From positions 1 to 49,100 of the forward strand of contig NZ_SNWX01000023.1 in assembly GCF_004362045.1 (NCBI RefSeq): a DNA stretch of 49,100 nucleotides, read 5' to 3'. Made by a program: the position numbers and the translations under genes. Below, one piece after another: positions 5,788-15,075 of the stretch (the stretch's first letter is position 1; each line of letters starts with the position of its first letter). The stretch comes from Halanaerobium saccharolyticum (lineage in GTDB: Bacteria; Bacillota; Halanaerobiia; Halanaerobiales; Halanaerobiaceae). The notes below the pieces were generated by a model. It did no database searches. It was not told the DNA's origin and was given only the letters and a program-made list of their open reading frames with translations.

Positions 5788-6315
5788 ATGAAAAAAACAA
5801 AAAAAATTGTGGTTATCTCATTATTAATCTCTTTAGGGCTTGTTTTACATCTTGTAGAAAGTTTTTTTCCACTTTCAGCAGTAGTTCCTGGAGCAAAACT
5901 TGGCCTGGCAAATATTGTGTCTTTAATTGCAATTTCCCTATTTGGATTTCCAGCTGCTTTCCAGGTTGTAATTTTCAGAGTAGTACTGGGTTCATTATTA
6001 GCAGGAACCTTTATGACTATAAATTTTTATTTGAGTTTTAGTGGTGGAATATTGAGTTTTATACTGATGTATTTAACTTATTATTATTTTAAAGACTACT
6101 TTTCTTTAATTGGAATTAGTATAATAGGTGCTGTTGCTCATAATACTGCTCAAATTACAGCTTCCTATTTCATTATAGCCAACATTGGTATATTCTATTA
6201 TTTACCGTTTTTGATTTTGCTTGCTCTGCCAACAGGTTTTGGGGTTGGTCTGGTCAGTTACTTTACTCTTAAACATCTGCCATATTCACTTACCGGAGGT
6301 AATTTTAATGATTAA
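5788..6315 (+). CDS. Gx transporter family membrane protein
   Basis: A 175-aa integral membrane protein with five to six hydrophobic helices and the family features LHLVESFFPLSA, PGAKLGLANIVSL and FRVVLGSLLAGTF. It belongs to the Gx_transp family, often labelled heptaprenyl diphosphate synthase component I and resembling ECF-type S components. Enzymatic prenyl synthase activity is doubtful, because this protein has no DDxxD motif. It follows the NusG_II gene by one base, and its 3' end overlaps maf by 8 bases. The substrate is unknown. Confidence 0.85.
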   Translation: MKKTKKIVVISLLISLGLVLHLVESFFPLSAVVPGAKLGLANIVSLIAISLFGFPAAFQVVIFRVVLGSLLAGTFMTINFYLSFSGGILSFILMYLTYYYFKDYFSLIGISIIGAVAHNTAQITASYFIIANIGIFYYLPFLILLALPTGFGVGLVSYFTLKHLPYSLTGGNFND

Positions 6316-12145: not shown

Positions 12146-12222
12146 AACCTAAGTAGGAGAAGCAGGATTTTCAATTTTATTAAAGAATATAATAAAAAGT
12201 GGACTAAATGAGGAGAGATCTT

Positions 12223-12825
12223 ATGGCTTCTGTATTTTCATTTCAGGCAGTTTCAGATGGAATAGTTATGAATTTTCGTGAAAGCAGTACTTTTGGCAGC
12301 ATAAAAAAAGCTGTCAGCCTCCATGCAGCTGAAGCCTCTGATTTTTTTACAGGTGTAAATCTGTATTTAAATTTAAGTGGACTGGAATTAGCTTACGAAC
12401 AGCTGGAAGAATTGATGGAGATAGTAAAAAATTATAATCAGGTAAATAAAATATACTTTACAGCCCGAAAAATCAAAGAAGAAAAAAGTGAAGATAATTA
12501 CTCAGATGCAGTAATTATCAATAGAACTCTCAGATCAGGTCAGAGAGTTAAACATCAGGCCAATATTGTAATTGTTGGAGATGTTAACCCGGGTGCTGAA
12601 GTTATAGCTGGTGGAGATATTATTGTTTTTGGTAGATTAAGAGGTGTTGTTCATGCAGGTGCTGGTGGAAGTAAAGATTCTCAGGTAGCAGCTTTAAAGT
12701 TAGATCCTACTCAGCTGCGAATTGCATCTTTAATTGCAAGATCACCTGATGACAGTGATAGTTCGAAATTACAGGCAGAAAGAGCATATATAGAAGATGA
12801 TCAGATTGTGGTAGAGAAAATTTAG
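12223..12825 (+). CDS. minC: Septum site-determining protein MinC
   Basis: MinC inhibits FtsZ polymerisation and works with MinD to keep the septum at midcell. The 200-aa protein has an N-terminal FtsZ-interacting domain and the C-terminal beta-helix typical of MinC (RTLRSGQRVKHQANIVIVG, then DVNPGAEVIAGGDIIVFGRLRGVVHAGAGG in two parts). The frame is open from 12208, but AGGAGAG (12211-12217) fixes the ATG at 12223. minD follows 24 bases later. Confidence 0.96.
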   Translation: MASVFSFQAVSDGIVMNFRESSTFGSIKKAVSLHAAEASDFFTGVNLYLNLSGLELAYEQLEELMEIVKNYNQVNKIYFTARKIKEEKSEDNYSDAVIINRTLRSGQRVKHQANIVIVGDVNPGAEVIAGGDIIVFGRLRGVVHAGAGGSKDSQVAALKLDPTQLRIASLIARSPDDSDSSKLQAERAYIEDDQIVVEKI

Positions 12826-12849: not shown

Positions 12850-13644
12850 TTGGCAGGTAAAACGATTGTTATTACTTCAGGAAAAGGTGGAGTAGGTAAA
12901 ACTACTTCTTCAGCTAATATTGGTACTGCACTGGCAATGCATGGTAATAAGGTATGTTTAATTGATGCTGATATTGGTTTGAGAAATTTGGATGTTGTCA
13001 TGGGACTTGAAAATAGAATAGTTTATGATATTGTCGATGTTGTAGAGAATAACTGCCGATTGGAGCAGGCGATGATTAGAGATAAGCGTTATGATGGTTT
13101 ATATCTCTTACCAGCTGCTCAAACAAGAGATAAAACTTCTGTAACTCCTTTTCAGATGAAAGAGCTGATTGAGAAGTTAAAAGAAGATATGGACTATATT
13201 GTTGTTGATTCACCGGCTGGAATAGAGCAGGGTTTTAAAAATGCAATTGCTGGGGCAGATAGAGCTATCATTGTTACTACTCCAGAAATATCTGCTGTTC
13301 GAGATGCTGACAGAATTATTGGTTTACTGGAGGCAGAAGGACTGCGTGATCCAGAAGTGATCATTAACAGGATTAGAGCAGATATGGTTGAACGTGGAGA
13401 TATGATGGGTATTGAAGATATGATAGAGATTCTTGCCATTGAACTAATTGGTATTGTACCAGAAGATGAGGGTATTGTAGTTTCTACCAATAGAGGTGAA
13501 CCTATTGCCTTAAATGATAATGCTAAGGCAGGGCAGGCATATCGTAATATTGCCCGCAGAATTATGGGGGAAGATCTGCCAATGATGAAACTGGAAAAGG
13601 ATAGTTTTATAAGCAGATTCAAAAAATTAGTTGGTTTATCTTAA
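12850..13644 (+). CDS. minD: Septum site-determining ATPase MinD
   Basis: MinD is a ParA/MinD-type ATPase that binds the membrane and recruits MinC. The 264-aa protein has the deviant Walker A GKGGVGKTT near the N-terminus, switch I region, Walker B YIVVDSPAGIE and a C-terminal amphipathic membrane-targeting helix (FISRFKKLVGLS). The TTG start follows CAGGGGGGATG. It is immediately upstream of minE, whose first codons continue in the same frame after the minD stop. Confidence 0.97.
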   Translation: MAGKTIVITSGKGGVGKTTSSANIGTALAMHGNKVCLIDADIGLRNLDVVMGLENRIVYDIVDVVENNCRLEQAMIRDKRYDGLYLLPAAQTRDKTSVTPFQMKELIEKLKEDMDYIVVDSPAGIEQGFKNAIAGADRAIIVTTPEISAVRDADRIIGLLEAEGLRDPEVIINRIRADMVERGDMMGIEDMIEILAIELIGIVPEDEGIVVSTNRGEPIALNDNAKAGQAYRNIARRIMGEDLPMMKLEKDSFISRFKKLVGLS

Positions 13645-13662
13645 TATAAAGGGGGGAGTAAA

Positions 13663-13920
13663 ATCGATATATTAAAATGGCTCGGTTTGAAAAGTGATGA
13701 TAAAAAAAGTAAGAGTGTGGCAAAAGAAAGATTGCAATTTGTACTTGTTCAGGATAGAGTAAAACTAACTCCGGATGAGATGGATGCAATGCGGGACGAA
13801 TTAATAGAAGTTTTAAGTAAATATATAGATGTCGATTCTCAAAAAATTGAAATGGATGTCAGGCGAGAAGATGATATGACAGCCCTGGTTGCAAATTTTC
13901 CCCTCAAGGGTTCAAAGTAG
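13663..13920 (+). CDS. minE: Cell division topological specificity factor MinE, probable ATC start
   Basis: MinE stimulates MinD ATPase and drives the pole-to-pole oscillation of MinCD. From the TTG at 13687 the frame gives only 77 aa and lacks the MinE N-terminus. Reading upstream in frame gives IDILKWLGLKSDDK, which is the amphipathic membrane-targeting sequence that opens MinE proteins. No ATG, GTG or TTG exists in this frame between the minD stop (13642-13644) and 13687. GGGGGGAG (13651-13658) lies four bases before ATC (13663). I therefore call an ATC start and an 85-aa product. The core RLQFVLVQDR and the C-terminal domain are intact. ATA at 13669 is a less likely alternative. Confidence 0.85.
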   Translation: MDILKWLGLKSDDKKSKSVAKERLQFVLVQDRVKLTPDEMDAMRDELIEVLSKYIDVDSQKIEMDVRREDDMTALVANFPLKGSK

Positions 13921-13935
13921 TGGGGTTGTTTGATA

Positions 13936-15075
13936 ATGAACTGGAATAAAAAATTTCTGAGGTATTTAAATTTTAATGTCCCACTTGCTGTGGTGCTGTT
14001 AATTATTATTGGTTTTATTAGCATCAGTTCTGCTGTTGAAATCAATCATATGAACAATGGTGCTCTAAGGTTCTTACAAAAACAGGCAGTCTCAGTTGTT
14101 CTGGGGCTGCTCGTGATTTTTATTTTACAGGCTTTTGATTACAGAATCTTTAAAGAATATGCAGCAGTAATTTATGCTGTAATGCTGGTTATGTTAACTG
14201 CAACAATATTTTTTGGCCGCGGTGTTTCGGGAGGAGCACACTGGATCAGCATTGGTGCTTTTAATCTTCAGACTTCAGAATTATCAAAAATTATGTTAAT
14301 TTTAGTTCTGGCTGCTGTGATTGACAATAATTCTGATGATATGGGTTATTTAAAGGGAATGTTTTTACCCTCAATTATAGCCTTTATTCCTTTTGCTCTG
14401 GTAATTTTACAGAATGATTTAGGAACTGCCTTAGTTCTATTTTTTATTTATCTGGTAATGCTCTTTGCTGGTGGTGGAAATTTTAAATATATGGCGGCTG
14501 TGTTTGGGGGCGGATTTTTATTGGTTGTTTTAGTTATAACTGCCCATGTTACTCTCAAGACTCCACTTCCTTTTTTAAAGGAGTACCAGCTGAATAGATT
14601 AATTGTATTTATTAATCCCAATATAGATCCTCACGGCAGTGGTTATAATATTATTCAGTCAAAGATTGCTCTGGGTTCAGGAAGAATTTTTGGTAAAGGA
14701 TTATTTGCCGGTACTCAAAATCAGCTCAACTTTCTGCCGGAAAAGCATACTGATTTTATATTTTCGGTAATTGGAGAAGAATTTGGTTTTATTGGTTCGG
14801 CAATAGTAATTTTGTTATTTTTATATTTGCTCTGGCAGTTTTTAAATATTGCAGAAAATGCCAGAGATCGTTACGGTTATCTAATTGTGGTAGGGGTAAT
14901 GGCAATGTTTCTATTTCATATTCTGGAAAATATTGGGATGACAATGGGGATTATGCCGATTACTGGTATTCCACTTCCCTTTATTAGTTATGGAGGTACA
15001 TTTATGCTGACTTCGCTGACTGCAGTTGCAATCGTAATTAATGTAAACTTAAGAAAAAATAAATTGATGTTCTAA
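13936..15075 (+). CDS. rodA: Rod shape-determining SEDS glycosyltransferase RodA
   Basis: RodA polymerises lipid II into glycan strands during elongation, paired with the class B PBP encoded upstream. The protein (about 379 aa) has ten hydrophobic helices and SEDS signatures GGAHWISIG, NLQTSELSKI, LQNDLGTALV, FLPEKHTDFIFSVIGEEFG and the final GIPLPFISYGGT. The ATG at 13936 gives MNWNKKFL; a TTG at 13930 is also possible. I call RodA rather than FtsW from the mre/min context and the absence of murein precursor genes nearby. Confidence 0.93.
   Translation: MNWNKKFLRYLNFNVPLAVVLLIIIGFISISSAVEINHMNNGALRFLQKQAVSVVLGLLVIFILQAFDYRIFKEYAAVIYAVMLVMLTATIFFGRGVSGGAHWISIGAFNLQTSELSKIMLILVLAAVIDNNSDDMGYLKGMFLPSIIAFIPFALVILQNDLGTALVLFFIYLVMLFAGGGNFKYMAAVFGGGFLLVVLVITAHVTLKTPLPFLKEYQLNRLIVFINPNIDPHGSGYNIIQSKIALGSGRIFGKGLFAGTQNQLNFLPEKHTDFIFSVIGEEFGFIGSAIVILLFLYLLWQFLNIAENARDRYGYLIVVGVMAMFLFHILENIGMTMGIMPITGIPLPFISYGGTFMLTSLTAVAIVINVNLRKNKLMF

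Follow-up and report, generated by a model that had tools for sequence, protein, structure and literature searches.

Sequence comparison strongly supports a clade-wide ATC-type start codon for minE in the Halanaerobiales

Which codon starts minE when its frame offers none of the usual ones ahead of the conserved protein? The question arises in a contig of Halanaerobium saccharolyticum, of which the 49,100 nucleotides analysed here are called the window, and in which minC, minD and minE lie consecutively on the forward strand. The first gene, minC (12208–12825), was taken from the list of open reading frames and named by eye from its position and sequence. It is followed by minD (12850–13644), which has a TTG start, encodes 264 amino acids with CbiA/ParA-type ATPase domains and ends with TAA at 13642–13644. 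A forward-strand rodA/ftsW-like gene (13930–15075; same list, named by eye from sequence) lies downstream of minE. After the minD stop the minE frame reads TAT AAA GGG GGG AGT AAA ATC GAT ATA TTA AAA TGG CTC GGT TTG. A Shine-Dalgarno (SD)-type G-run, GGGGGGAG, occupies 13651–13658 (duplex energy with the anti-SD string, -11.3), and four bases separate it from the ATC at 13663–13665, which itself lies 18 nt from the minD stop. The first-pass annotation, which had proposed initiation at this ATC, had correctly described both the SD site and the lack of any in-frame ATG, GTG or TTG between the minD stop and TTG 13687.

Read from this ATC, minE spans 13663–13920 (85 codons plus stop). Its identification was borne out by a profile search (PF03776, E 1.1e-23, 83.4 bits against a cut-off of 25), which matched the topological specificity domain at residues 16–82 of the protein read from ATC. 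The N-terminal stretch IDILKWLGLK is conserved in the family loci, and solved structures align only from query residue 20; in E. coli MinE, the N-terminal stretch has a membrane-targeting role. The MinE of H. saccharolyticum MSL 17.2 is identical to that of the window. A promoter/terminator scan gave nothing noteworthy above shuffles.

Comparison of family loci revealed ATC, closely preceded by an SD run, as the minE start codon in 14 of 14 genomes. Across the order (Halanaerobiales), minE was found in all 38 genomes searched, and its starts were called with the same script throughout, which required an anti-SD duplex energy of -4 or lower and considered codons up to 40 from an AKERL-type motif. 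In 32 of the 38 there was no SD-led standard start, and an SD-led ATC, ATT or ATA was present instead. Read by eye, these were 26 ATC, one ambiguous ATT/ATC (G018), three ATT (G023–G025) and two ATA (G019 and G022). The remaining six genomes comprised one with a good, clear ATG start (G032) and five ambiguous cases: G020 has an SD-led ATC plus a TTG three codons downstream, while G026–G029 have an in-frame ATG two bases past the SD (energy -4.8) and an ATT at the best spacing (-11.7). The rare codon is conserved across the clade, with G032 and possibly G020 and G026–G029 as exceptions, and shifts among ATC, ATT and ATA. The first-pass annotation had suggested this alignment and had named a sequencing error creating ATC from ATG, or ATG in relatives, as what would speak against its proposal. 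The error is ruled out, as independent genomes carry the same codon; a clear ATG does exist in G032 and G026–G029 are ambiguous, but the rest of the order lacks a clear ATG. Comparison of the 38 genomes strongly supports the ATC start of minE as real and clade-wide, and the first-pass annotation had read it correctly.

Outside the order, minE was matched in 20 genomes of the class, all with an ATG, GTG or TTG start; one further class genome, 57% complete, gave no minE match. A search of the phylum detected MinE in 167 of 199 genomes. Among 70 of these outside the class (the 30 best-scoring, the 20 next and 20 lower of the 167, which is not a random draw), the start was standard in 67 and uncallable by motif in three, and neither the 20 class genomes nor the 67 showed the combination of an SD-led ATH and no SD-led standard start. 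In many genomes of sister orders the TTG, GTG or ATG start lies at most about two codons away from the ATC position. The window's MinE belongs to the known MinE family (PF03776) and has the family's minC-minD-minE order, but differs in its start codon from the 87 callable relatives outside the order.

The start ATC was also compared with ordinary isoleucine codons. Across the 14 family genomes, 24 columns of minD plus minE are always isoleucine; 23 of them mix codons, and the minE start alone keeps a single one. ATC is the rarest isoleucine codon there (33 of 489 other isoleucine codons in these two genes); the pattern used to extract the codons contained ATCGAT, and the 14 of 14 invariance of the start rests on the separate comparison of family loci. 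By this comparison, ATC at the minE start is beyond chance and more than an ordinary isoleucine codon.

Several readings of the locus would dispense with an ATC start. The invariance of ATCGAT in the 14 family genomes might reflect selection for a binding site in the DNA or RNA, but outside the family the equivalent sequence varies (ATCGGT, ATCGAC, ATAGAA, ATTAGT) and the ATH codon at SD spacing persists, so that a binding site is quite improbable. Translation from a downstream standard codon is very improbable: TTG 13687 (13687–13689) and GTG 13717 are the first in-frame candidates, but their SD energies are only -1.5 and -0.6, a standard start is missing at these places in many relatives, and the conserved IDILKWLGLKS would be lost. 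TTG 13687 in particular, which the first-pass annotation had kept as the alternative, is a TTG in only 4 of the 14 family genomes. A MinD-MinE fusion, by readthrough of the minD stop or a frameshift near it, would fit the frame that the two genes share in the window. In relatives, however, the distance from the minD stop to the ATC is 17 nt (loci L010 and L012) or 16 nt (L013), and the minE frame of these loci contains other stops; as these spacings are no multiple of three, readthrough is excluded as a shared mechanism, and we regard a fusion as extremely improbable.

To see how common such starts are, we screened sixty 20-kb stretches (52% of the genome) of the relative G005, in which 1000 genes passed the coding score (above 15); SD energy had to be at most -6 for standard and at most -7 for non-standard codons. 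SD-led standard starts were called in 833 of the 1000 genes (650 ATG, 133 TTG and 50 GTG). In 13 of the remaining 167, an SD-led non-standard codon comes ahead of the first standard one, a result that depends on the thresholds and misses genes with an SD-led standard codon also near. About six of the 13 are plausible by eye: infC (ATC), minE (ATC), maf (ATT), a C_GCAxxG_C_C protein (ATT), an ECF transporter-like gene (ATA; L115 from 12345) and a Zn-dependent phospholipase C-like gene (CTG; L228 from 6797). The last three owe their family assignment to the profile search. The other seven resemble noise, gene fragments or weakly coding sequence. The screen recovered infC and minE without gene names as input, and the stretches around both known places were among those chosen.

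Conservation was found for infC and minE only, among these candidates. The ATT of maf without a standard start is private to G005, as of the 30 loci examined (38 were found) 29 carry an ATG or GTG close to the motif. In G005 (L124), maf seems to be ATT-started: its AAG ATT corresponds in several relatives to an ATG and then ATT, ATA or ATC; the window copy of maf has ATG at 6308. The C_GCAxxG_C_C redox protein gene of G005 (L227:8015-8536, minus strand) has AAGGAGG followed by ATT and no in-frame standard start; in five relatives, ATG or GTG precedes the motif in two, and in three the gene was not found by the motifs used.

A weak ATC-type start is otherwise best known from infC, the gene for the translation factor IF3. 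In the order, infC was found in 36 genomes, and all 30 loci examined (L067–L096) have an ATC (29 loci) or ATT (L095) start with a strong SD. Like infC of E. coli and Streptomyces, with their AUU/AUC starts, minE has a conserved AUH start with a strong SD; in the window and 31 others of the 38 genomes it shows the infC-type combination of no usable ATG, GTG or TTG and an AUH codon at SD spacing. The two differ in that minE is a division gene, for which no autoregulation and only a putative response to IF3 would be expected. IF3 itself looks canonical. An altered IF3 was considered as a cause and rejected, since the protein aligns normally with solved IF3 chains.

The initiator tRNA was then analysed. 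ARAGORN assigned it the anticodon CAU in the five genomes tested. Its anticodon stem in the order is A29-U41/G30-C40/G31-C39 instead of three G-C pairs, and the usual G29-C41 is absent: all 46 initiator-stem matches, from 24 of the 38 genomes (the other 14 gave none), are of the A29-U41 type. Eight of the 46 additionally have G31-U39, as one copy in several Halanaerobium genomes. A stricter pattern had matched only one of the 38 genomes, a consequence of the altered stem. The initiator tRNAs of the window's genome lie outside the window (G000:C6:3870-3946 and G000:C33:301-377) and lack G29-C41. A study reportedly treats unusual initiator tRNAs and start codons in mycoplasmas. The three G-C pairs are called highly conserved (PMC10486304), and 16S G1338 and A1339 contact the base pairs 29-41 and 30-40 (PMC11497404).

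Two explanations accept the ATC start and assign it to this machinery. That a variant initiator tRNA with a GAU anticodon reads AUC as its cognate start has a negligible probability in our judgement: some GGGYTGATAACCC strings are present in relatives, but they are absent from the window's genome and from G002 and G005, ARAGORN recognised neither an Ile nor a Met tRNA at the loci retrieved for these strings, and the initiator-type tRNAs found carry CAU. Such a tRNA was not found by pattern searches and ARAGORN. The main rival holds that AUC is merely tolerated, the unusual initiator stem (A29-U41, sometimes G31-U39) reading it while the codon drifts without regulatory meaning. The uniform A29-U41 matches speak for this, as does a change of the neighbouring pair G30-C40, which in E. 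coli lowers start-codon discrimination (PMC11497404). However, the genome screen turned up very few non-standard starts, one family never varies the third base, and drift should have given ATG more often. Moreover, G044 and G045 have the A29-U41 tRNA but standard minE starts. The sister family f9 likewise shares A29-U41, f8 is mixed, and f10 and f11 mostly have G29-C41; as f9 has standard minE starts, A29-U41 is a shared background and not by itself the cause. Mere tolerance therefore appears unlikely. With the A29-U41 pair, AUC may be a less weak start here than it is in E. coli, which counts against weak initiation.

The explanation that we consider probable is that conserved weak, IF3-sensitive initiation at AUC 13663 by the CAU initiator holds MinE below MinD. 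The ordinary initiator tRNA would pair with the AUC despite a mismatch at the third position and deliver fMet, and ribosomes ending minD would probably help initiation at the strong SD-led start 18 nt after its stop. The weak codon would keep MinE below MinD and would itself have been retained throughout the order, strong initiation being harmful. That the codon stays within ATH and has seldom changed to ATG suggests that weak initiation is selected for. The strong SD partly offsets the weak codon, which counts against weak initiation. A strong minE start is not lethal everywhere, since G032 uses ATG and G026–G029 have an in-frame ATG.

Because IF3 discriminates against AUH codons, MinE synthesis would follow IF3 activity in parallel with infC. 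IF3 disfavours weak third-position codon-anticodon pairs in vitro (PMC10158994), and in Streptomyces, where infC starts with ATC, the natural GTC start of sigR lowers SigR below its partner and is repressed by IF3 (PMC5472188). By analogy with sigR and the IF3 studies, AUC should lower MinE relative to MinD and confer IF3 sensitivity. Sequence comparison itself shows where the codon lies, that it is conserved, that no alternative start exists, that infC shares it and that the initiator anticodon is CAU; from this we infer lower MinE expression, IF3 dependence and an effect on division. The sigR gene resembles minE in having a rare start within an operon whose two products need a fixed ratio, and in a regulatory layout conserved across the genus; it differs in using GTC and not ATC, in that IF3 repression was shown for sigR, and in lying upstream of its partner, whereas minE lies downstream (PMC5472188). 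The dose of MinE is expected to matter, since in E. coli oscillation is slower at a high MinD/MinE ratio and cells without MinE form filaments (PMC6803595). Low MinE and IF3 sensitivity fit the conservation pattern and the ATC start shared with infC. A wider circuit, in which the AUC starts of minE and infC couple the MinE:MinD ratio, and hence Min oscillation and the placement of the division site, to IF3 activity and so to translation-initiation capacity across the order, with an initiator tRNA lacking the canonical three G-C pairs, is a tentative and rather doubtful extension.

The literature listed contained no description of a non-standard start of minE in Halanaerobium, a weak absence, as "mine" and "mind" match ordinary English. 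To our knowledge, very few genes have a conserved start outside ATG, GTG and TTG. The ATC start suggests that MinE production is deliberately low or tied to translation-initiation capacity. minE would be a second such gene beside infC, encoding a protein whose ratio to MinD sets the division plane, and would show that deliberately weak initiation is under selection. It may well be mis-started in annotations of the order, and its ATC would give a simple one-codon handle on how the dose of MinE is set.
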